Shown here piece after piece: positions 1,407 through 51,573 of a stretch of DNA of 64,000 nt. A model generated the notes under the pieces. That model had not been told where the DNA came from. It searched no databases and saw only the letters and a program-made list of their open reading frames with translations. The DNA lies in contig NZ_JAQZZL010000002.1 in NCBI RefSeq assembly GCF_028745505.1, positions 1 to 64,000 of the forward strand, read 5' to 3'. The stretch's first letter is position 1. Every line of letters starts with the position of its first letter. This DNA is from Lentisphaera marina (GTDB lineage Bacteria; Verrucomicrobiota; Lentisphaeria; Lentisphaerales; Lentisphaeraceae). The translations under genes were made by a program, and so were the position numbers.

Positions 1407-2810
1407 ATGCTCGAAAACCTGAATCACATAATAGTAGTTGGGATTACCTATATACTAGGAACTTTATTAGCGGGAGAGGTCTTATATAAAGGGCGCACCA
1501 GCCAAGGTAAAACGGCTTGGATCTTGAGTTTATTGCTTATGCCTCTTTTAGCAGTTCCAGCCTACTTGTTATTTGGTTCACGGAAGTTTCATGGTTACGT
1601 AACTGAGCACAAAGAAGGGCAGGAGCCCTTAGATGAGTTATGGAGAAATGCATGTCAGGCAATGGAAAAAAATAAGGCAGTAATTAATGAATTATGTCTT
1701 TATGATAAAATATCTAAATTCTTCTTTACTAGTGGTAACCAAATAGAATTACTAAAGAATGGAAAGCAAAAATACACTTGTTTATTTAAAGATTTAGAAA
1801 ATGCAGAAGAGAGTATATGCATCGAATATTATATCATTCGCAATGATAAAATAGGGCAAAAACTCCAAAAACTTCTCATTGAAAAAGCTAAGCAAGGTTT
1901 AGAAGTCTACTTAATTTGTGACTACATAGGTTCCTTGAGTATAAAAAAATCCTACATGAAAGAGTTACAAGACGCTGGAGTGAAAGCGCATTTTTTTAGA
2001 ACCACTAAGTACGGTAGAAGAGGGCAAATTAACTTTCGCAATCATCGCAAATTAGTGATTATTGATAGTCAGATTATTTATACTGGAGGAATGAATTTAG
2101 CAGAAGATTATGAAAGCGAGTTTTGGAGAGATACACACTTACGCATCAAAGGTCCCATGGGACCATCTCTACAATTCACTTATCTTCTGGACTATCAATG
2201 GGCGAAAGAGAAAACAGACCCTTTACCACAGTTAGATTTCACAAAACATCAAATTTTTGAACCTTCTTACGAAGCTTTAGCTATCGCAAGTGGCCCAGCG
2301 GACGATAGAGAAACTTGTCTGCTTTATTACCTAAATTTAATTAATCAAGCGCAAGAGAGTTTGGATTTGGTGAGTCCATTTTTCGCTCCAGATGACGCCA
2401 TTATAGCGGCGCTTATTTCCGCAAATTTACGCGGTGTAAGGGTAAGGCTTATCATTCCAAGACGATCAGATAATCATTACCTAGTGGACTTATCAGCTCA
2501 CGAATACGCCAGCTCTTTGGCAAGGAAAGGTATAGAGGTGTATTTTTATGAAAAGGGGATGATTCATAAGAAAGCCTTGATTGTCGATAAAAACTTAGTC
2601 AGCATAGGCACGGCAAATCTGGATAATCGTTCCTTCAGAATAAATTTTGAAATTAGCATATTGGTGAATTCTTCAGAGTTTGCTCAAGAAAACTTACAGT
2701 TATTTGAAGAAGATATACAAAACTCTAGCCAAATAAGTGGTTATGAAAAGCAAGCAGTCATTCCTAAATTTTTAGCTAAAGTCAGTCAACTATTTGCCCC
2801 ATTACAATAA
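1407..2810 (+). CDS. cls: Cardiolipin synthase (phospholipase D family)
   Basis: The 467-residue protein has the standard bacterial Cls layout: two N-terminal membrane segments (residues about 7-28 and 38-57) followed by two phospholipase D domains. Both HKD motifs are complete: H213 in NHRKLVIIDS followed by GGMNLAEDY, and H387 in IHKKALIVDK followed by GTANLDNRSF. It would condense two phosphatidylglycerol molecules, releasing glycerol, to make cardiolipin at the inner membrane. It lies 3 bases after the secretin-like gene and probably shares its transcript. Length and motifs are typical, so the family call is secure; which cls paralogue it is cannot be told. Confidence 0.93.
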   Translation: MLENLNHIIVVGITYILGTLLAGEVLYKGRTSQGKTAWILSLLLMPLLAVPAYLLFGSRKFHGYVTEHKEGQEPLDELWRNACQAMEKNKAVINELCLYDKISKFFFTSGNQIELLKNGKQKYTCLFKDLENAEESICIEYYIIRNDKIGQKLQKLLIEKAKQGLEVYLICDYIGSLSIKKSYMKELQDAGVKAHFFRTTKYGRRGQINFRNHRKLVIIDSQIIYTGGMNLAEDYESEFWRDTHLRIKGPMGPSLQFTYLLDYQWAKEKTDPLPQLDFTKHQIFEPSYEALAIASGPADDRETCLLYYLNLINQAQESLDLVSPFFAPDDAIIAALISANLRGVRVRLIIPRRSDNHYLVDLSAHEYASSLARKGIEVYFYEKGMIHKKALIVDKNLVSIGTANLDNRSFRINFEISILVNSSEFAQENLQLFEEDIQNSSQISGYEKQAVIPKFLAKVSQLFAPLQ

Positions 2811-2831
2811 AATAATACTTAATGTATTATT
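2811..2831 (+). terminator. AT-only hairpin after cls (weak)
   Basis: A perfect 8-bp inverted repeat (AATAATAC / GTATTATT, 5-base loop) follows the cls stop codon directly. It contains only one G-C pair and is not followed by a long T run, so it would be a poor intrinsic terminator. The rest of the 256-base gap to the next gene shows no other structure that I can support. Confidence 0.25.
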
Positions 2832-3066
2832 GACTTATTTCATCAGGATTTAAGTAAAGAAAAGGCCAAAATAAGGATTTTACTTCCTTTTATGAATGAA
2901 TATTTAAGACAAGTAAGGAGTTCTCATTTTGCCAAACACTTTTAAAAAACAGTTAATTAACTTAGCAAACTCCACAAATAATAAGTGATGGATGAAGATA
3001 GCTTGTTAACAATCTCGAACTTAAATTGTAGTATATAGAGAATGCAAAACTAAACAGAGGTCAATT

Positions 3067-4896
3067 ATGTTCCGTAAGTCTATATATTCCACAAGCTTAA
3101 TATTTACAATACTCGCCTCACCAAGTCTGTATTCAGCAAAAATGTTGAGTTCCAAGAATGATACGGCGAATTCGACCGTTGTTAACGCAGTAAAAAGTAA
3201 AGCAGATGCATCATCATTTTGGGGAGTCTCATATTTAGTCAGTAGCGATGGTGCAAAAGACCAAGACCTTGTGTCCACCCCAGATGCTTTAAAAGGTCTA
3301 AGTGCGTACATAAAATCAAGTGATAATTTTTATAATGCGGCTTTTCTTCTACACCACCGAGCAAATACTGATTTAAATTCAGCACTAGCAAACAGTGAGA
3401 ATCCAAATTTAGAAGCTTTAGCCGCGGCAAGAATGGCGATGACTGCAGCGGTGCAGTACTACGATTCCCTGATTGAAAGAAATAACTTGAACATTAGTGA
3501 AAATGTTGAGGAAGTACCATCAATTAAAGGTTCCAAGAAAAAATCTAAGAAGGGTAAAAAAGGGAAGAAGAACAAATCGACAAATACAGATAGTGGCAGT
3601 GCTGTGTCTTTAGACGAAGAATTATTATTGAAATTTGTAAATAGTAAAAATTCTAAAACACAATTCCTAGCTATCCAAGCTGCGGCCTTCGCAAAAGTAT
3701 CTGGGCTGACCGAAGCGATTAATGGCTTGACACTAAAATCACTAGAATCTCAGTGTGCACGTTTATTTTTCAAAGCTCGCGTAAATGCTTCTTTAGATCA
3801 ACAAGAAGTCTTAAGTCTCACAAAATTAGCCATGAAAAAGCGATCTTCAGAGAAAGCATTTGTGAACTTTTCTTTGGATACACCGGCCATTTCTTTTATA
3901 TGTCAGGCCATTGCTGAAGTAAAAGATGAAAATTTATTAAATGTTTTACATACGAGCCTAAACCACTCAGATTTAAGAGGGCAGGTTGATGCAGCTAAAG
4001 CGATTGCCAAAATAGCTTCTGCAGAAAGTTTAAGCGCAGTGAGTCAAAAAATTGCCAAAGCACCATGGCCTGTCTTAGTTCACTTATGTTATTACTCGGC
4101 CAAAAATCCCAACGCCAAACTTCTTCCCAACTTGATTCAGCGTCTAGCCAAAGAAAAAGGACGTATGAGAATTAATTTAAATTATGCTATAAGCATAATC
4201 GCGGGGGGGCAACATGCTTCATCCTATAAAGATTGGGTGACTTGGTATAAATCCAACAAGGGCTTTACCGTTGATCAAGCGGCTTCAACTGAGTTTCGTG
4301 ATAAGTACATGGTGCAAGTAATGGATGGTGGACCAAATGGTTATTTCTACAGTCTACCCATTTATAGTGATCGCCTCTGTTATGTTGTCGATACCTCAGC
4401 ATCTATGAAAGGCCCCCGTATTGAATCCTTAGACGAAAATATGGCAATGTCTGTTGAGCAATTACTCAATAAGGCAAAATATAATATCGTAGATTTTGGT
4501 GGCGATGTAGAGATCATGGAATCTCGTGGATTAACTGATGACCTGAAAAAAGGTTCAGCACGTGTTAAAGAGTGGGATATGAGCTTAGGAACGCGAAGCT
4601 TTTGTGCAATCCGTCAGAGCCTCCTCTTTCCAGGCGTCGACTCAATTTATTTCCTTTCCGATGGTGCACCCGCACGTGATTCGGTGAAAAAATGGGAGGG
4701 TATTACCGAAGGAGTTATGATGCTCACCCGTTATATGCCCATAGCCGTTCACTGTATTGACTTTGACCCGAAGGCAGGTAATCAAGCCTACATGATCAAC
4801 CTTGCCAAGTATAATGAAGGTCGTCACGAATCCATTGAGGTGGGGCCCGGAGCTCCAGATGGTGGTGGAGCGAAGAAAAAGAAGAAAAAGAAATAA
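3067..4896 (+). CDS. Exported von Willebrand factor A domain protein with HEAT-like region and lysine tail
   Basis: The 609-residue product starts with a signal peptide (FRKSIYSTSLIFTILASPSLYSA) and an AGAGG ribosome-binding site lies 6 bases before the ATG. Residues about 150-185 are a low-complexity lysine/serine/glycine linker (GSKKKSKKGKKGKKNK). Residues about 200-370 are alpha-helical and repeat-like (AIQAAAFAKVSG, AAKAIAKIASAESL), similar to HEAT repeats. Residues about 435-595 form a VWA domain with a MIDAS start DTSAS (D442), a later threonine in GTRSF and an aspartate in LSDGAP. The C-terminus is GGGAKKKKKKK. VWA domains bind metal and protein partners; the partner here is unknown. 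The gene stands alone between a weak hairpin and a strong terminator. Confidence 0.75.
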   Translation: MFRKSIYSTSLIFTILASPSLYSAKMLSSKNDTANSTVVNAVKSKADASSFWGVSYLVSSDGAKDQDLVSTPDALKGLSAYIKSSDNFYNAAFLLHHRANTDLNSALANSENPNLEALAAARMAMTAAVQYYDSLIERNNLNISENVEEVPSIKGSKKKSKKGKKGKKNKSTNTDSGSAVSLDEELLLKFVNSKNSKTQFLAIQAAAFAKVSGLTEAINGLTLKSLESQCARLFFKARVNASLDQQEVLSLTKLAMKKRSSEKAFVNFSLDTPAISFICQAIAEVKDENLLNVLHTSLNHSDLRGQVDAAKAIAKIASAESLSAVSQKIAKAPWPVLVHLCYYSAKNPNAKLLPNLIQRLAKEKGRMRINLNYAISIIAGGQHASSYKDWVTWYKSNKGFTVDQAASTEFRDKYMVQVMDGGPNGYFYSLPIYSDRLCYVVDTSASMKGPRIESLDENMAMSVEQLLNKAKYNIVDFGGDVEIMESRGLTDDLKKGSARVKEWDMSLGTRSFCAIRQSLLFPGVDSIYFLSDGAPARDSVKKWEGITEGVMMLTRYMPIAVHCIDFDPKAGNQAYMINLAKYNEGRHESIEVGPGAPDGGGAKKKKKKK

Positions 4897-42016: not shown

Positions 42017-43057
42017 TTATGAGGCTTGTGTAAACTTCCACTTATTAGCAATTTTGACTAGGCTGAGCATAATGGGGACCTCTATGAGGACGCCCACCAC
42101 TGTGGCAAGAGCAGCTCCAGAATTGAGGCCGAAGAGGGCGATCGCCACGGCCACAGCGAGTTCAAAGAAGTTACTAGCACCAATCATGGCTGCAGGCGAG
42201 AGAATACAATGTTCAAGTTTGAGTTTTTTACCGATGAACCAAGAGGTGAAAAAGATAAAATAGGTTTGGATAGTCAAGGGAATAGCAATGATGAGGATAC
42301 TTAAAGGAGACTCAACAATCTTGTTGCCCTGAAAAGCAAAGAGAAGAACTAGAGTCATGATGAGGGCGATAATTGAGAATGGTTTGAGTTTCTTTAAAAA
42401 GGTATCTTTAAACCATGTTTCCCCATATTTTTTTATCAAAATCCGGTTGGAAAGAAAACCTGTAATGAGTGGAACTAGTACAAAAATAATGACACTCATA
42501 GTTAAAGTATCCATGGGGATTTCTACTTGATTTACCCCCAGCAAAAACTTAACTATAGGAATGAATGCAATAAGTAAAATGAGGTCATTTACCGATACTT
42601 GTACCAAAGTATAAGAAGGGTCCCCATCAGTTAAGTAGGACCACACAAAAACCATCGCGGTACAAGGGGCCGCACCTAATAAAACGGCGCCTGCAAAATA
42701 CTCCTGAGCTTGTTCAGGGTTCAAAAAGCCTTTAAAAATATTATCAAAAAACAGCCATGCAAAAAAGGCCATAGAAAAGGGCTTGAGCCCCCAGTTAATA
42801 AATAAAGTTAGAATCAGACCTTTTGGTTTTTTGCCCGCATTTTTGATAGAACTAAAATCAATTTGTACCATCATTGGGTAGATCATAAACCAAATTAATA
42901 TGGCGATGGGAATATTGACCTTTGCATAACTTAGCTCACCCAAAGGCTTGATTTCGTCCCCCATGAAGCGGCCAAGTAAAATCCCGACAACTATGCCGAG
43001 GCCGACCCATACGCTGAGATACCTTTCAAAGAGGCCTAAATTTTTTGTTTTATCCAT
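42017..43057 (-). CDS. Arsenite efflux transporter Acr3
   Basis: The 346-residue, ten-helix transporter belongs to the BASS/Acr3 group: NIPIAILIWFMIYPMMVQIDFSSI, the conserved cysteine in GAAPCTAMVFVWSYLTDGDP, VSVNDLILLIAF, and APAAMIGASNFFELAVAVAIALFG-type helix (here PAAMIGASNFFELAVAVA). The cysteine is needed for arsenite transport in Acr3. No arsR or arsC is adjacent, so the gene is an isolated efflux pump. Confidence 0.9.
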   Translation of the reverse strand: MDKTKNLGLFERYLSVWVGLGIVVGILLGRFMGDEIKPLGELSYAKVNIPIAILIWFMIYPMMVQIDFSSIKNAGKKPKGLILTLFINWGLKPFSMAFFAWLFFDNIFKGFLNPEQAQEYFAGAVLLGAAPCTAMVFVWSYLTDGDPSYTLVQVSVNDLILLIAFIPIVKFLLGVNQVEIPMDTLTMSVIIFVLVPLITGFLSNRILIKKYGETWFKDTFLKKLKPFSIIALIMTLVLLFAFQGNKIVESPLSILIIAIPLTIQTYFIFFTSWFIGKKLKLEHCILSPAAMIGASNFFELAVAVAIALFGLNSGAALATVVGVLIEVPIMLSLVKIANKWKFTQAS

Positions 43058-43217: not shown

Positions 43218-43826
43218 TTACTTTACAGCAATAAGCTCGATGTCAAAAACTAAAGTTTCGCAAGGACCGATTTTAGGCGGGCTACCAGCTGTACCGTATG
43301 CGAGTTCGTAAGGGATGAAAAGTTCCCATTTGTCACCAGCTTTCATGAGCTGAAGAGCTTCCTGCCAGCCTTGGATAACGCCATTCACTGGGAATGAAAC
43401 GGTTTCGCCACGTTGGTATGAGCTATCGAAAACTTCACCATTTGTAAGGCGACCTTCGTAGTGAGTTTCCACTGTGCATGAAGCTGAAGGAGTTTTCCCT
43501 TCGCCACTTTTAACAACGCGGTACTGAAGACCACTTGCAGTTGTGATGATGCCATCTTTTTTAGCGTTTTCAGCAAGAAATTCTTGGCCCGCAGCAGCGA
43601 GTTCTTTAGATTGCTCAGCTTGTTTAGCTTGCATGCGCTCTTGGAGTGCACCGAAAATAGCTTGTTCGTCAGCCGCAGTGAAAGGGCTTTCTTTACCTTC
43701 AGAAGCTTCGAGGAGGCTAGCTCCGAGTGCTTTGAAATCGAGTTCATCTGCAAGGCCTTGGCCCTTGAGATTATCAAAAATTTGACGGCCAATCATAGCA
43801 GACAATTTTTCTTGGTCTGTGCTCAT
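43218..43826 (-). CDS. FKBP-type peptidyl-prolyl isomerase (FklB/Mip-like)
   Basis: The 202-residue protein has an N-terminal dimerisation domain (about 1-90, helical, LQERMQAKQAEQSKELAAAGQEFLAENAKKDG) and a C-terminal FKBP fold with SGLQYRVVKSGEGKTPSA, VETHYEGRLTNGEVFDSSYQRG, VIQGWQEALQLMKAGDKWELFIPYELAYG. There is no signal peptide, so it is cytoplasmic (FklB-like). It catalyses proline isomerisation during folding. A strong terminator follows. Confidence 0.93.
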   Translation of the reverse strand: MSTDQEKLSAMIGRQIFDNLKGQGLADELDFKALGASLLEASEGKESPFTAADEQAIFGALQERMQAKQAEQSKELAAAGQEFLAENAKKDGIITTASGLQYRVVKSGEGKTPSASCTVETHYEGRLTNGEVFDSSYQRGETVSFPVNGVIQGWQEALQLMKAGDKWELFIPYELAYGTAGSPPKIGPCETLVFDIELIAVK

Positions 43827-43922: not shown

Positions 43923-45995
43923 TTAAATATTTAATTCAGAACTGAGGAACTGCAAAAAAAGGCCAACATCGGTGACAATTCCCCGTGCTTCAAGACTGCC
44001 ACGATCGCACAGTTTACTGACCACCGCGGGGTTAATATCTACACAAATGAGTTGCACTCCAGAGGGAGTCATATTGCCGACGCCGATGGAATGCAGCATG
44101 GAGGAGAGCATCAGAATCATCTGACAATCTTTGATGGCTTCGGAGTAACGTTCTTGAGCGACGAGCAAATCCATAATTGTATCGGGAAGTGGGCCATCAT
44201 CGCGGATGGATCCTGCCAAGACATAATTGACCCCGTGTTGCACACAGGCGTGCATGATCCCTGCTTTTATGAGACCTTGATGGACAGCTGCTTCAATAGA
44301 GCCAGCTAAACGGACTCGATTGATGGCTCGTAAATGATGTTGGTGGCCTCCTGCAACTGGAGAACCTCTTTGTAGATCAACACCGAGGGAAGTCTCGAAT
44401 AATTGATATTCAATATCGTGAACCGCGAGGGCATTACCACTTAACAAAACGTCGATGAAATCAGCACGGATCATTTTTTCAAGGTAATTAGCTGCCCCCG
44501 TGTGGACGACGACGGGACCTGCAACCACGGCTATTTTTCCGCCTGCGGTTTTGATTTTCCTGATCTCTTGAGCAATTTCTTTGATTTGACCTTCGGCACG
44601 GCGCTCGCTAGAAACTGAACTGCTCATAAAGCTAAAAGCCTCGGCATCATCGCTTTGTTGAGGCGACTCAACCTGGAGTCCCTTTTCACCAATTAAAACC
44701 AAATCGCCTTGATCAAGATCACGGATAATCTTGCAAGTAATACTTTGCTGAGCTGGATTAAAGACTATGACTCCATCCATACGGCGATTTTGCAGGTGTA
44801 GATTTTTAGAATTTATATAGACTTGCGTGGGGTAAATACTGGTGGTGTAAAAACCTTCTGGTGCGACGCCATCTTTGGGTGCAGGGAAAAACATGGCTTC
44901 CTCTCGATCTTCGGTGCATTCCCAACCGCGATCAATCAAAGCTTTCCGGGTATTTTCTAGACGTGTGGAATCGGGGGAGCAGAGTTTGAGCTCGGCATGA
45001 GATTTTTGATCCTGACGTAGGGCCGGAGTAAAGTTGGATAAGTTGAAGCTGAGCCCATTGAGTTCGATAAAATTTAAGCTATCCGCCAGTTGCCCCGAAT
45101 CGAGTAAATGCCCAGAGAATTTTAGTGTCTCGCTGCGGATGGGAGATGATAAACTTTCTTTTTGCGGAGCTCGCACAATGCTTTCTTGCTCGAGTTTCAT
45201 GGTGAGGCATTTTACACCGCCACCCGCTTTCATGAATTCACTTACTGGGCATAGCTTGATTTGGTAGCCTCTAGCCTCGAGATCTTTTTGCAGAGTCAGA
45301 CTCATGGCATTGGTGAAAATAAGTCTGTTCACATTGAAGAGGTTACAGCTGAATTGACAGGCATCCTCTTCACTCACCAAAATACGTTTTTTGGGAGGGA
45401 TACGGCGTTCAATTTCATTTATAGAGTATGAATCGAAAGCATTAGGAAAGTAGATGACTTCACCTCCCTCGAGCGGAGCAAAACAGGTGTCCAGATGATA
45501 GAATCGGGGGTCGATTAATCGCAGTGGAACGACGTCGACTTCTAGGTCTTGGAGGATAGACTTTTGAACTTCTAGACCGGAGCGCACGCCATAACCGGTC
45601 CACAAGAGGCGCTCATTAGCTTGGAATAAGGCATCACCTTCTCCTTCAAAACTGCATGCGGAACCATAGTCAATGACTTCATAATTGAGCTGGCAAAATG
45701 TCTCTTGAAAAATCTTTTCTTCGACTTGGCGTTCCTGCATGCGAAAGCGGGAGAGCAGGACTTTAGTGCCAAGGCTCAAGCCACCATTAGCGGTAAAAAC
45801 TAAATCGGGCATATTTTCTTGGGGAGCGAGGCAATGAATATCCAGTTGTTCAGCGAGTTGCTCATATAGCCTGTCCCATTGCTGACGAGCTAGGCCTTTG
45901 TTAACCAAGCCGATTTGCCCTTTCATCCAAGGATTTATTTCGTAATCCACTCCAAAATAATCTGGAGGACACATAAGAATTCTTTGTTTTTTCAT
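43923..45995 (-). CDS. Arginine dihydrolase / ornithine cyclodeaminase fusion (AgrE/ArgZ type)
   Basis: Starting at ATG 45995 (GGAG upstream; an earlier in-frame start is not preferred), the 690-residue protein matches the cyanobacterial AgrE layout. The N-terminal 270 residues are the guanidine-group-modifying fold of ArgZ: N21, N70 in FTANGG, E117-GEGD, H167 in FYHLDTCF and C263 in GGGVKCLTM, each one position from the numbers given for ArgZ (N22, N71, H168, C264). Residues about 280-690 form the LOR/SDH-type domain (SETLKFSGHLLDSGQ..., IAVVAGPVVVHTG). The reaction would convert arginine to ornithine, CO2 and ammonia, then ornithine to proline. The neighbouring divergent PutA gene oxidises proline further to glutamate. 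Confidence 0.88.
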   Translation of the reverse strand: MKKQRILMCPPDYFGVDYEINPWMKGQIGLVNKGLARQQWDRLYEQLAEQLDIHCLAPQENMPDLVFTANGGLSLGTKVLLSRFRMQERQVEEKIFQETFCQLNYEVIDYGSACSFEGEGDALFQANERLLWTGYGVRSGLEVQKSILQDLEVDVVPLRLIDPRFYHLDTCFAPLEGGEVIYFPNAFDSYSINEIERRIPPKKRILVSEEDACQFSCNLFNVNRLIFTNAMSLTLQKDLEARGYQIKLCPVSEFMKAGGGVKCLTMKLEQESIVRAPQKESLSSPIRSETLKFSGHLLDSGQLADSLNFIELNGLSFNLSNFTPALRQDQKSHAELKLCSPDSTRLENTRKALIDRGWECTEDREEAMFFPAPKDGVAPEGFYTTSIYPTQVYINSKNLHLQNRRMDGVIVFNPAQQSITCKIIRDLDQGDLVLIGEKGLQVESPQQSDDAEAFSFMSSSVSSERRAEGQIKEIAQEIRKIKTAGGKIAVVAGPVVVHTGAANYLEKMIRADFIDVLLSGNALAVHDIEYQLFETSLGVDLQRGSPVAGGHQHHLRAINRVRLAGSIEAAVHQGLIKAGIMHACVQHGVNYVLAGSIRDDGPLPDTIMDLLVAQERYSEAIKDCQMILMLSSMLHSIGVGNMTPSGVQLICVDINPAVVSKLCDRGSLEARGIVTDVGLFLQFLSSELNI

Positions 45996-46133
45996 AAGAA
46001 TTGAACTCCTGCCGTTGTCTTTAATATACATCAAGTTCTGCTTAAAGAGAAAATTATTGTGTGGCCTTAGGATTCCCTTTCCTAGCTTTAGGGTATTTAT
46101 TAACTAAGAGTTTTGAATTCATCGGGTGAAAAA

Positions 46134-49100
46134 ATGTCTCAAGTCATTAAAGAAATCCGCGAGTTTTTGCGGGCCTTAGAAGCTAAGCGCCAATTAAATA
46201 CTTTAGAGCGTGGTCACGAAGCCATTCATTTAGCTAAACTCATCCTCAGAGCGGCTCATCAAGTTCAAAAAGCCGATGAAAAGCAGCGCGATACGGAGTT
46301 GGCAAAAATGTTTGATGATCAAGCAGGGAAGTCTTTTAGTACGGCCATGCATGATCAATGTTTTCGCAGCGAGAATGCGCTGCGAATTGCCCAGCAAATA
46401 AGTTATTTATTAGCTAAATATGGGACGCCGAAATTTTTAGATTTATGGACTCAATTTCAAATCAATATCTTTCGTTTGAGCCCTTTATTTATTCAAGTAA
46501 GGCTCATTCCTCTCATAAAAAATATCCTCCGCAAAAAGACCGCAAAAGTTATTTTTCCAGGAGAAGATCAGCGTCTTTATGGACATCTAAACTCAAGGGC
46601 AAAGCAGGGGGTGAAAAGCAATGTCAATCGCCTTGGAGAAGCGATCTTAGGTGAGCAAGAAGCAGAAAGGCGTATGCAAACTTATCTAGCGGATTTAAAA
46701 GCACAAAAAATTAATTATATGTCGATAAAAATATCGACTCTGTATTCGCAAATCAATACCCTCTCAAGAGAGCAGAGTTTAGAGATTCTAGCCGAGCGTT
46801 TGCGGCGACTTTATCGAGCTGCACAAAAATACGTCCTAAATGGGTCAGCCTGTTTTATAAATTTGGATATGGAGGAATATCGCGATGTAGATATGACCTG
46901 CGAAGTCTTTAAAACAGTTTTAAATGAAGAGGAATTTTGGTCTTTACGAGCAGGGATAGTCCTTCAGGCTTATTTACCAGATTCCTATGATTTGCTGCTA
47001 GATTTAATTGCCTTTGCCAAGCAGCGCATTGAAGGGGGTGGGGTGCCCTTAAAATTGCGTATCGTCAAAGGAGCGAATTTGGCAATGGAAAAATTGGAGG
47101 CCTCGCACGGCAGTAGTGTGGCGGCTCCTTTTGAGGACAAGCTATCAGTAGATGCGCATTACAAAAAAATGCTTGAGTTCGCCTTAAAAAAGGAAAATGC
47201 AGTGGCTTTAAATATCGGTATTGCCTCACATAACCTATTTGAACTTGCTTATGCTTTTTTATTAATGCATGAAAATGCCGTAGAGCAGTACTGTGAATTT
47301 GAAATGCTAGAAGGGATGGCGCCACATATTCACCAGATCATTCAACAATTGAGTCGGAAAACGGTGCTTTATTGTCCCGTTGCGCGTGAAACTGAATTCA
47401 ATAATGCGATTGCCTACCTCATTCGACGTTTGGATGAACAAAGTGCTGAGGAAAATTTTCTGCGACACTCCTTTAAACTCCACGAAGATGAGGCCTCTTT
47501 TGAGCAACAAGGCCAATATTTTCTTCAGGGCCTCAACAAACTTGATCTGATTTCATCTACTTCGCGAAGAAATCAGATTCCCGAACTTAAAAAAAGCTCC
47601 GTACAAGATTCATTTGTCAATGAGATGAATAGCGACTTTATCTTGCGTGAAAATGTGGAGCACTTGGAAAAGGCCTATGCAGATTTAGAGAGCGAGCTAA
47701 ATTCTAAAACTAGCTTGAAAAGCTTGCCCCTCATCATTGGGGGTGAGGAAGTTTTCGGAGCAAGGAAGCAATTGGGGCTTATGCCAGACACAGGACAAGC
47801 CTTCTATCAATATAGCTTAGCAGATTTGCAGCAGGTCGAAATGTGTTTACAGACTGCGGTAACAGAGTACCAGCGTATCAATAATGATGATTGGCTACAA
47901 AGATCTGAGAGATTATTACTGGTGGCTCAAAAGCTCCGCGAAAATCGTTTTAAATTCACGGCATTGATGATGTGCGAAGTGGGCAAAAGTGCAAGGGAAG
48001 CGGATGCAGAAGTATCTGAAGCCATAGATTTTTGTGAATACTACGCACGCTCAATGCTTACTTGGCAAAAATTGAAGAACTTATCTTGGAGTGGTTTAGG
48101 AACGGTTTTAGTTTGTTCGCCCTGGAATTTTCCCTTGGCGATTTCTACTGGAGGAATTGCGGCAGCACTAGTCACTGGCAATACTTGTATTTATAAGCCC
48201 GCCCCCGAGAGCGTTTTTGTGGCTTATGAATTAGTGAAAATTTTTCATCAGGCAGGCTTTAGTACTAAAGAATTGCAGTTCCTAACTTGCGAGGATGAGC
48301 CTGTGGGCTCAGCTCTAGTGAAAGATGATCGTTTAAATGGGCTCGTGCTTACGGGAGCGACTGAGACGGCGCAGACCTTTATGAAAATGCGCCCCACGCT
48401 GAATTTGATGGCGGAGACTGGGGGTAAAAATGCGATGATCATCACTGAATTGAGTGATCGTGATCTAGCGATAAAACACTTAGTTGATTCGGCTTTTGCT
48501 TATGCTGGGCAAAAATGTTCGGCCTGTTCCGTGGTACTTGTGCATGAATCTCTTTATCGAGACGAAAAATTTCTTGAGACTTTGAAAGATGCGGCTCAGT
48601 CACGGTTTGTGGGCTTAGCTCGGAATTTTCAATCCTTTATAACGCCTCTTATCAAAGAGCCTCGAGGCAAATTACTTCGTGCGATGACTCATTTGGAAAA
48701 AGGCGAAACTTGGTTGCTTGAACCTCATATAGATCCTCAAAATCCCCATTTAATGTCTCCGGGGATAAAGCTGGGGATCCAAGCCAATTCCGAGAGCTTT
48801 AGGACAGAATTTTTTGGTCCCATTTTATCAATCATGTCTTACGATAAACTGGAAGATGCTATTGAGCTTTTGAACAGCAGCACTTATGGATTAACAGGGG
48901 GTATTCATAGTCTTGATGAAAGGGAGCAGAAATTATTTTTAGCCAAAATTGAAGTGGGCAATGCCTATGTTTGTCGTGGTATAACTGGTGCCATGGTGCA
49001 ACGCCAAGCGTTTGGGGGCTATAAGAATTCCGCTTTTGGTAGAGGTCTCAAAGCGGGTGGGCCAAATTACCTCCTGCAGTTTTGCCGGATTAGCGAAACA

Positions 49101-49712
49101 ATAAGCCCTTCGTCGGCTGCTGACTCAGTCCTTCAGCCTGAACTGAGGTCAGGCTTGGAGAAATATCTAAGTAGAGATGATTGGTGCATATGCTTACATT
49201 CAATAAAATCATATGAACGAGCTTATGAAGATGAGTTTAGTCAGCCTCACGATTATCAAGAGCTCCTTGGGCAGGCGAATATATTGCGTTACCGCCCCCT
49301 CGAGCGACTTCATTTTATCGTCCAAGAAAATGATACTCGCCTTGAGCTTTGCCAGATTTTGACTGCGCTGCGAGTGGCGCGAGTCAAGCAAGTCGTAGTT
49401 TTTGCGACATCCGCAAGCATGGAGAGTTTGGAATTAAGCGAACTGCAAAAAACATTTGCTTTTGAACTGTGTTTATTAGAAGAAGGCAATTTAAGTCAGC
49501 TATTCCAAGTAGGTGATATGGGTCGCATTCGTGTTATTCATCAGCTTCCAAAAATTTGTCAGGATGAAGCTGCCGAGAAATTCATTCATTTGCAGCCCAT
49601 GCCCGTTTATTCGGAAGGGCGTCTGGAGTTAGTGAATTATTTCCATTCTCAGTCCTTGAGTATTGATTATCATCGCTATGGGAATGTGGACCAAGGCTTT
49701 TCTTTGGATTAG
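46134..49712 (+). CDS. putA: Bifunctional proline dehydrogenase / P5C dehydrogenase PutA
   Basis: Starting at ATG 46134, 1192 residues. Residues about 20-440 are the proline dehydrogenase TIM barrel (KINYMSIKISTLYSQI, INLDMEEYRDVDMT, PLKLRIVKGANLAMEK, IASHNLFELAYA, YCPVARETEFNNAIAYLIRRL). Residues about 500-1000 are the aldehyde dehydrogenase: SPWNFPLAISTGGIAAALVTGN, catalytic E761 in MAETGGKN and C795 in AGQKCSACSVV, GGYKNSAFGRGLKAGGP. A C-terminal ~190-residue extension follows, as in type B/C PutA. No ribbon-helix-helix DNA-binding domain is seen at the N-terminus, so it is not a trifunctional regulator. Proline is oxidised to glutamate. Divergent from the AgrE-type gene. Confidence 0.93.
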   Translation: MSQVIKEIREFLRALEAKRQLNTLERGHEAIHLAKLILRAAHQVQKADEKQRDTELAKMFDDQAGKSFSTAMHDQCFRSENALRIAQQISYLLAKYGTPKFLDLWTQFQINIFRLSPLFIQVRLIPLIKNILRKKTAKVIFPGEDQRLYGHLNSRAKQGVKSNVNRLGEAILGEQEAERRMQTYLADLKAQKINYMSIKISTLYSQINTLSREQSLEILAERLRRLYRAAQKYVLNGSACFINLDMEEYRDVDMTCEVFKTVLNEEEFWSLRAGIVLQAYLPDSYDLLLDLIAFAKQRIEGGGVPLKLRIVKGANLAMEKLEASHGSSVAAPFEDKLSVDAHYKKMLEFALKKENAVALNIGIASHNLFELAYAFLLMHENAVEQYCEFEMLEGMAPHIHQIIQQLSRKTVLYCPVARETEFNNAIAYLIRRLDEQSAEENFLRHSFKLHEDEASFEQQGQYFLQGLNKLDLISSTSRRNQIPELKKSSVQDSFVNEMNSDFILRENVEHLEKAYADLESELNSKTSLKSLPLIIGGEEVFGARKQLGLMPDTGQAFYQYSLADLQQVEMCLQTAVTEYQRINNDDWLQRSERLLLVAQKLRENRFKFTALMMCEVGKSAREADAEVSEAIDFCEYYARSMLTWQKLKNLSWSGLGTVLVCSPWNFPLAISTGGIAAALVTGNTCIYKPAPESVFVAYELVKIFHQAGFSTKELQFLTCEDEPVGSALVKDDRLNGLVLTGATETAQTFMKMRPTLNLMAETGGKNAMIITELSDRDLAIKHLVDSAFAYAGQKCSACSVVLVHESLYRDEKFLETLKDAAQSRFVGLARNFQSFITPLIKEPRGKLLRAMTHLEKGETWLLEPHIDPQNPHLMSPGIKLGIQANSESFRTEFFGPILSIMSYDKLEDAIELLNSSTYGLTGGIHSLDEREQKLFLAKIEVGNAYVCRGITGAMVQRQAFGGYKNSAFGRGLKAGGPNYLLQFCRISETISPSSAADSVLQPELRSGLEKYLSRDDWCICLHSIKSYERAYEDEFSQPHDYQELLGQANILRYRPLERLHFIVQENDTRLELCQILTALRVARVKQVVVFATSASMESLELSELQKTFAFELCLLEEGNLSQLFQVGDMGRIRVIHQLPKICQDEAAEKFIHLQPMPVYSEGRLELVNYFHSQSLSIDYHRYGNVDQGFSLD

Positions 49713-49809
49713 TAAACGCTCTGCTTCATGTGCAGTGGCCTGAACCTTGTAATTCCCTCTTATTAGTATTATTTTCATTTGAATTTAGACTATAATTTTG
49801 AGGTGTATT

Positions 49810-51573
49810 ATGAGATTTTTATTAGCGCTATTGTTCTTCTGCGTTCCGGCTTTTTCCAAAGATTTAATTGCAGTTTACCGCCTAGGTCATGTGATGGGTG
49901 AGACTTTGCCAGAGCCGGGGATCAATGAAATCCTCGACCCCGAGAAAGTTCGTCCGCTCAATTTTATGCAGATCCTTTCTTGCTTAAATTATTGTGTCAG
50001 TAAGGAGGAAGTGAAAGCCGTGGTGCTTTACTCCGAGGGCATGCGTTTGGGCATGGCACAAAAGCAAGAATTATTACGCCGTATTCACGAGATTAAAAAA
50101 GCGGGTAAAGAAGTTTACCTCTATGCCTTTAACTTAGATGAATCGACTTTGCCTCTAGCACAAAGCACAAAAATAAGTTTATTCCCTGAGGGAGATGTCA
50201 GTTTTCGCGGCTTGGCCATGCAACAGCTCTACTTCAAAGGCTTGCTCGATAAGTTGGGACTAGAAGCGGATATTATTCACATAGGTGATTACAAGAGTGC
50301 AGGCGAACCCTTTTATTTAACGGCTCCTAGTGCGGAGGCCGCAAAGCAACAAAAAGATTTAGGCGAAGGGCTTTTTCTTGAAGTCACCAAAGAATGCGCC
50401 AAGGGCGGACGAAAAGATCAAGCGGCATACCATGCGTTAATTGACGAGGGTTTATTTTTGAGTCAGCAAGCACTCGAGCACAAGTTGGTAGATAAGCTCG
50501 AGTATCACAATGAATTCGTGAAGCGCTTAAAAGGCACTCATGCTAAAGCTGATTTTAAATTAAATTATGGTATGCCAAAAAGTTTTGAGCCACCAAAAAT
50601 TAATAATATGATGGATGCTCTATCTTTTTTTCAAAAATTGAGTGCGCCCAAAAAGAAATCTAATAACGATATTTTGGCGCTCGTGAATTTAGATGGCACT
50701 ATTGATGCTCGTATGGGTGAACAATTGCGTCGTTATATTATGCGAGCTTCGCAAAATGATCAAGTGAAAGCGATGGTCTTGCGCATTAACTCTCCTGGGG
50801 GTTCGGCTCTGGCGAGTGAGATGATTTGTCAGGCAACTGAAGAATTTAAGAAAACGGGAAAAACATTCGTGGTCTCCATGGGCAATGTTGCCGCTAGTGG
50901 CGGTTATTACTCGGCGGTCTTTGGTGAGCCAATATTTGCGGAGTCCGCAACGATCACAGGTTCAATAGGTGTTTTAGGTGGGAAGCTAGTGATGTCAAAA
51001 ATGCTCGACAAGATCGGTATTAGCACTCACGAGTTCAAGATTGGTAAATATAGCGATATCAATAGCTCCACAAGCTTTTTTAACGAAGAGCAGAGAAATA
51101 AAATTACCGAATCCATGAATCACGTTTATGCGGTGTTTAAGGATCGTATTAATCAAGGACGTAAAAGTAAACTCACGGGTGACCTGGAAGCTATGGCAGG
51201 TGGACGTGTTTACACGGGGCTACAAGCCAAAGAGCTTGGCCTCGTGGATAAGATTGGCGGTTTGCGTGAGGCAATTAATGAAGCTAAGAAGCAAGCAGGG
51301 CTCAAACGCTATAGTTTAGAAACTTTCCCCAAGCAATTAACTTTTGAAGAAATGCTTATGGAGAGCTTTCGCCCCCAAGAAAAAGAGGATGAATTCGTGA
51401 GTTATGAGCCAATGATGAAAAAATCATTGAATTCTGAATGGCTCACGGAACTGATGCTCAATATGAAAATTCATCAGCCAAAATTGACCCATGAAATTCA
51501 TAAGTTCTTCCAATATCTGACTTTGCTTCAAGGAGAAAGTACCCTTGTTTTAGACCCGCGTTGGGCTCGATAA
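49810..51573 (+). CDS. sppA: Signal peptide peptidase SppA (protease IV, 67K type)
   Basis: Starting at ATG 49810 with GAGG 6 bases before, 587 residues. A signal sequence (MRFLLALLFFCVPAFSK) anchors it. Two S49 repeats follow; the catalytic Ser363 lies in NVAASGGYYSA and the general-base Lys162 in HIGDYKSAGEPF, as in 67K SppA, where the two residues come from different halves. It degrades released signal peptides in the membrane. It ends upstream of the tRNA cluster. Confidence 0.93.
   Translation: MRFLLALLFFCVPAFSKDLIAVYRLGHVMGETLPEPGINEILDPEKVRPLNFMQILSCLNYCVSKEEVKAVVLYSEGMRLGMAQKQELLRRIHEIKKAGKEVYLYAFNLDESTLPLAQSTKISLFPEGDVSFRGLAMQQLYFKGLLDKLGLEADIIHIGDYKSAGEPFYLTAPSAEAAKQQKDLGEGLFLEVTKECAKGGRKDQAAYHALIDEGLFLSQQALEHKLVDKLEYHNEFVKRLKGTHAKADFKLNYGMPKSFEPPKINNMMDALSFFQKLSAPKKKSNNDILALVNLDGTIDARMGEQLRRYIMRASQNDQVKAMVLRINSPGGSALASEMICQATEEFKKTGKTFVVSMGNVAASGGYYSAVFGEPIFAESATITGSIGVLGGKLVMSKMLDKIGISTHEFKIGKYSDINSSTSFFNEEQRNKITESMNHVYAVFKDRINQGRKSKLTGDLEAMAGGRVYTGLQAKELGLVDKIGGLREAINEAKKQAGLKRYSLETFPKQLTFEEMLMESFRPQEKEDEFVSYEPMMKKSLNSEWLTELMLNMKIHQPKLTHEIHKFFQYLTLLQGESTLVLDPRWAR

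Follow-up and report, generated by a model that had tools for sequence, protein, structure and literature searches.

A divergent pair of AgrE-type fusion and putA genes in Lentisphaera marina, predicted to encode a route from arginine to glutamate

The stretch analyzed here, called the window, comprises the first 64,000 nucleotides of contig NZ_JAQZZL010000002.1 of Lentisphaera marina (Verrucomicrobiota; assembly GCF_028745505.1). It carries, back to back, a gene for an AgrE/ArgZ-type fusion enzyme and a gene for a PutA. In cyanobacteria, AgrE converts arginine to proline, freeing one CO2 and three ammonium, and PutA carries proline on to glutamate (PMC8262935). Our comparative analysis indicates that the divergent pair very probably encodes a complete catabolic route from arginine to glutamate. 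Arginine would first be hydrolyzed by the N-terminal domain of the fusion, yielding ornithine, CO2, and two ammonia; the C-terminal domain would then cyclize ornithine to proline, releasing a third ammonia, and the adjoining PutA would oxidize proline to glutamate. We infer these reactions from the characterized cyanobacterial enzymes; the gene content, domains, and motifs were observed.

The two genes and the fusion enzyme

43923..45995, minus strand: AgrE/ArgZ-type fusion, 690 residues; N-terminal arginine dihydrolase, LOR/SDH region, and ArgZ-like C-terminal ornithine cyclodeaminase (TIGR00300); assigned from Pfam, NCBIfam, PDB entries 6lrf, 6juy, and 3c2q, and aligned motifs.
45996..46133, no strand: intergenic spacer of 138 bases, start codon to start codon; AGGAG 5' of the fusion gene and an 11-base block, TAATATACATC, also found in a congener.
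46134..49712, plus strand: PutA, 1192 residues; proline dehydrogenase, L-glutamate gamma-semialdehyde dehydrogenase, and about 200 extra C-terminal residues; assigned from Pfam, PDB entry 5ux5, the motifs YLIRRLDE and GQKCSA, and a tree.

Both genes named in the initial annotation are real: they are two complete, intact, divergent frames in the open-frame list of the window, and the 138-base gap placed between them is exact (45996-46133), as are the coordinates. The fusion frame is listed as 43923-46034 (703 residues, TTG start). The ATG at 45995, which gives 690 residues, is its likely start, since AGGAG lies just upstream and the open frame of a congener begins at the matching residue. The putA gene starts with the ATG at 46134.

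Pfam domains follow one another in the fusion, within one open frame, in the order DDAH/ADI-like, LOR/SDH, and two ArgZ C-terminal domains. The protein matches the solved Anabaena Alr4995 (6lrf, E 2.2e-211) and Synechocystis Sll1336 (6juy, E 1.7e-207) over almost its whole length, which excludes a chance match. It scores 496.9 bits with TIGR00300, the NCBIfam model for ornithine cyclodeaminase, above the curated cut-off of 410.8. When aligned with five other fusions, including that of Synechocystis salina (L052), it keeps the dihydrolase motifs FTAN, FEG, FYHLDTCF, and KCLT. The motif residues N70, E117, H167, and C263 (fusion numbering) match Asn71, Glu118, His168, and Cys264 (Synechocystis numbering), which we take to be the catalytic residues. 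The cyclodeaminase part has VHTG, GGHQHH, and AGSIRDDGPLPD. The claims that the ArgZ catalytic residues and the C-terminal cyclodeaminase domain are retained are thus borne out by the aligned motifs and the TIGR00300 score, and the domains, the whole-length homology to solved AgrE/ArgZ, and the conserved motifs support the proposed order of arginine, proline, and glutamate.

NCBIfam names the TIGR00300 enzyme as dependent on the nickel-pincer nucleotide (NPN). LarC and LarE are above cut-off in the genome of L. marina; both are also found in the congener G288, so that their presence is unspecific and only permissive for NPN dependence. No paper joining NPN with ornithine cyclodeaminase was found in a literature search, and the NPN paper PMC11796402, searched by term, does not mention ornithine. 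Elsewhere, the locus L084 of genome G013 carries adjoining separate genes for a cyclodeaminase (1504-2742; 413.1 bits, TIGR00300 cut-off 410.8) and an arginine dihydrolase (2777-3580). These are the same two predicted activities as at our locus, in two adjacent genes instead of one fused gene. G013 has no LarC match and no LarE above cut-off, in a search that covered LarC and LarE, with LarB outside it. The same holds for G166, where a dihydrolase match and a partial cyclodeaminase match lie side by side. Should TIGR00300 enzymes depend on the nickel-pincer cofactor, the LarC and LarE results leave its source in these two genomes unexplained.

The PutA partner and the relatives of the fusion

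The PutA carries Pro_dh and Aldedh domains (Pfam) and has intact YLIRRLDE and GQKCSA motifs, for which we presume the usual roles. Its closest solved relative is 5ux5 (612 bits), followed by 5ur2 (368) and 4nm9 (324), and the alignment with 5ux5 runs beyond the aldehyde dehydrogenase domain to residue 1090. 5ux5 has 1076 residues and the window PutA 1192, and the match is weak in the final portion of the C-terminal region. We take 5ux5 to be the Corynebacterium freiburgense PutA of class 3B; under this presumed label and definition, the window PutA fits the class by its closeness to 5ux5 and its extra C-terminal domain. Judged by profile scores, it is of another type than the bifunctional PRK11904 (417 bits, cut-off 747) and the trifunctional PRK11809 (310 bits, cut-off 1750). 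About 400 residues follow GQKCSA in this long type and about 210 in the short type. The single cyanobacterial PutA tested (L135) has 5ur2 (950 bits) and 4nm9 (907) as its best solved matches, and the 17 matches that it gives at E 1e-100 do not include 5ux5.

In an 11-row PutA tree, one group (100/100) holds the PutAs of the window and its congener together with three of the long type from the sister genus g3: L095 and L107, both in G289, and L096 in G232. The other six rows, PutAs encoded in cyanobacterial, planctomycete, verrucomicrobial, and gammaproteobacterial genomes that also carry the fusion, stand apart from this group. The tree tool warns that a long row, L140, meets the window group; this row lacks GQKCSA and was not relied on. 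A PutA match at E 1e-60 or better was found in 44 of the 288 genomes of the phylum sample. Outside family f1, 20 of these 44 (19 in family f18 and one in f31) align without interruption between residues 21-30 and 1185, with identities of 37-42%. The long type is therefore common in the phylum, in contrast to the full fusion, which was found in 2 of 288 genomes of the phylum sample, those of the window and of the congener G194 (the search for the fusion did not cover G288).

Of 576 confirmed relatives of the fusion, the best 80 were kept, a selection and not a census. Judged by title, 75 of the 80 are cyanobacterial and 5 are not, and the fusion also occurs in planctomycete, verrucomicrobial, and gammaproteobacterial records. 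The pathway is known from cyanobacteria, as stated initially, and the fusion extends beyond cyanobacteria and this genus. Three of 294 genomes around a Phycisphaerae center carry the full fusion (the center included), and other genomes of that sample have separate dihydrolase and cyclodeaminase genes, adjacent in some (G403, G443, and G575). In favor of the predicted route, a PutA-like frame is also present in each of the six other fusion-bearing genomes tested. The literature search returned no paper on AgrE in planctomycetes or verrucomicrobia, as judged by titles, and none joining Lentisphaera, arginine, and proline dehydrogenase.

The fusion tree was built from 38 rows: 16 of the 75 cyanobacterial loci, seven other non-cyanobacterial fusions, the window, one congener, and 13 of 28 standalone cyclodeaminases (L084, L150-L176); L148 is the same place as L014. 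Rooted on the standalone enzymes, whose rows lack the dihydrolase columns, the tree splits the 25 fusions from these 13 rows with 100/99 support. The window and its congener group with two Phycisphaerae, one Verrucomicrobia, one gammaproteobacterial, and two further planctomycete-sample fusions (99/99; quick tree 93), while the 16 cyanobacteria and a Spartobacteria locus, L048, form the other group (100/99). In the approximately unbiased (AU) test, a grouping of cyanobacteria with the window pair to the exclusion of L048 was rejected (p-AU 0.003). The comparison with cyanobacterial AgrE suggested at the outset thus gave a non-cyanobacterial place in the free tree, and a place of the window pair beside the clade of cyanobacteria and L048 was not rejected (p-AU 0.263). 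On these alignments, the fusion is probably a member of an AgrE lineage outside the cyanobacteria.

A ready-made cassette acquired from a cyanobacterium is disfavored and appears very improbable. The pathway is best described in cyanobacteria (PMC8262935), and the placement left standing by the AU test would suit such a transfer; the free tree, the rejection of the grouping without L048, and a PutA of another type than the single cyanobacterial one tested all speak against it. Since the window PutA is of the long type common in the phylum and differs from the single cyanobacterial PutA tested, an independent assembly of the pairing is probable, with a fusion of the probable non-cyanobacterial AgrE lineage joined to this long-type PutA.

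Compared with Alr4995 and Sll1336, the window fusion has the same domain order, length, dihydrolase motifs, and TIGR00300 C-terminal enzyme, and it is 46-49% identical to the 75 cyanobacterial loci. It differs in falling below the cut-off of the NCBIfam fusion model, in its position in the free tree, on a branch with a long stem that falls outside the cyanobacteria, and in being encoded beside putA.

Several observations weigh against a complete route of this origin, among them the unrejected placement beside the cyanobacterial clade. The fusion scores 840 bits over 687 residues with NF052231, the NCBIfam ArgZ fusion model, below its curated cut-off of 1025, and its dihydrolase domain scores 318 bits against a cut-off of 450. 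No genome in either sample passes the NF052231 cut-off (0/288 in the window's own phylum, 0/294 in the second), so the label "AgrE-type" is drawn from architecture, motifs, and the tree and not from this model. The fusions of the window and its congener sit together on a long stem, with 1.21 changes per column, and their letter make-up is flagged by the tree tool as unlike that of the alignment. Across the 23 other fusions of the tree, 194 columns do not vary; 176 of these are kept in the window fusion and 174 in that of the congener (90-91%). By comparison, each of the seven non-cyanobacterial fusions besides these two keeps 95.1-99.5% of a comparable set drawn up with that fusion left out. 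Because of the 18 departures in the window fusion, 11 of them in the cyclodeaminase part, an altered rate or specificity is possible.

These departures and the long stem would also suit an enzyme that acts chiefly as an arginine dihydrolase, feeding ornithine back to arginine synthesis in an ornithine-ammonia cycle, with a weak or changed cyclodeaminase half and a PutA that takes its proline from elsewhere. A possible release of ornithine from AgrE has been discussed for cyanobacteria (PMC8262935). We consider this explanation improbable, given a TIGR00300 score well over the cut-off, the presence of VHTG, GGHQHH, and AGSIRDDGPLPD, and the divergent pairing with PutA, which suggests proline as a product.

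The site in two congeners

The pair is flanked by two conserved genes that lie outside the pathway:

43218..43826, minus strand: FKBP-type peptidyl-prolyl isomerase (Pfam), left flank; the neighbor is about 92% identical in both congeners.
49798..51573, plus strand: SppA-like peptidase S49 (Pfam), right flank; adjoins the FKBP gene in the congener G288.

G194 has FKBP, fusion, PutA, and SppA in the window's order, with the divergent pair kept and with identities to the window of 92, 68, 62, and 69%, respectively. In G288, the FKBP and SppA genes are 215 bases apart and the pair is lacking between them. Neither gene was found in the 14-kb stretch around the site, and a whole-genome PutA search of G288 gave weak aldehyde dehydrogenase matches alone and no long PutA. 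Alignment of the G288 spacer with the window extends to about 43886 on the left side and resumes at about 49745 on the right. Two points count here on the adverse side: the fusion was sought in G288 at this site alone, and in the middle of the G288 spacer about 100 bases have no match in either flank or in the 138-base spacer.

Fifteen of 17 open frames matched in both congeners are more alike between the window genome and G288 than between the window genome and G194. These frames have at least 200 codons, were not checked as genes, include one with unequal aligned lengths (495 and 322), and exclude matches to a single congener. As they put G288 nearer to the window genome than G194, the simplest history is probably a pair present in the ancestor of the genus and lost jointly in G288; transfer of the pair into the same site is a possible alternative. 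The pair thus appears to have been inherited, and probably lost, as one unit in the genus.

The initial annotation had also claimed that the shared spacer would allow co-control. A link between the genes is supported by their divergent order in G194 and by the lack of both at the site in G288; shared control within the spacer did not find the same backing. A scan of the 138 bases for sigma-70-like promoters called none, and the clearest parts conserved with one congener are the start region of the fusion gene and the 11-base block, with little else. Co-control of the fusion and PutA through the spacer is a plausible possibility.

A rival reading, for which the negative promoter scan and the sparse conservation of the spacer speak, is that the two genes are neighbors by chance, with separate roles (for example, arginine turnover and general proline use) and no joint control. 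The sister-genus genome G232 has a long-type PutA and no fusion match (G289 was outside the fusion search). PutA adjoins the fusion in none of the best 80 relatives, 60 of which have at least 2 kb on both sides; in L048 alone it lies about 3.6 kb away, in convergent orientation. A chance association is nevertheless unlikely, as the divergent order has persisted in G194 at protein identities of 62-68% and G288 has neither gene at the site.

Two further observations concern the surroundings of the site. In G288, two adjoining frames that by eye resemble a broken IS110-type transposase (L187, 5008-6103) are found between SppA and a Cys/Met enzyme gene, off the empty site. Downstream of the FKBP gene in the window is an SBF-family transporter gene (42017-43057, minus strand), which is kept in G288, where it is cut by the contig start. 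It has no match in G194, where the 41479-41919 gene lies directly downstream of FKBP.

Predicted role of the pair

Two metabolic settings were considered and rejected in a search of six family members. A link to cyanophycin fails because cyanophycin synthetase (TIGR02068, cut-off 850 bits) gave only partial matches far below cut-off in all six (best 116 bits; 45 in the window genome). The fusion as sole source of proline fails because proC is above cut-off in all six, and proline need not come from the fusion route. Together, these results suggest that the role of the pair is probably catabolic and that external or recycled arginine is its likely substrate. On the opposite side, an arginase-family gene of unspecified specificity is present in the window genome and both congeners, so that arginine may have other fates. 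The pair may serve nitrogen recovery, as first proposed.

The predicted activities, from arginine through proline to glutamate, are those of cyanobacterial AgrE-PutA catabolism (PMC8262935), from which the window differs by its other PutA type, its divergent two-gene unit, and the lack of a cyanophycin synthetase over cut-off. The pair adds a good further case of a route already known from cyanobacteria and is not a new kind of system; what is unusual here is the gene arrangement, the different PutA type, and the contrast in presence and absence between congeners at one site. A more speculative proposal, which we regard as rather doubtful, is that a non-cyanobacterial AgrE and the phylum-common long PutA form a divergent two-gene module assembled independently outside cyanobacteria and gained or lost as a unit. 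Such a module would be a portable cassette for heterotrophs without cyanophycin, possibly passing intermediates between both proteins. It is made somewhat less likely by a search for the fusion in G288 that covered the site alone.

These results place the AgrE-PutA route in a genus apparently outside cyanobacteria, with both genes physically paired, and suggest that the arginine route has been joined to PutAs of differing type from one phylum to another. The congeners, of which one carries the pair at this site and the other does not, provide a natural experiment.

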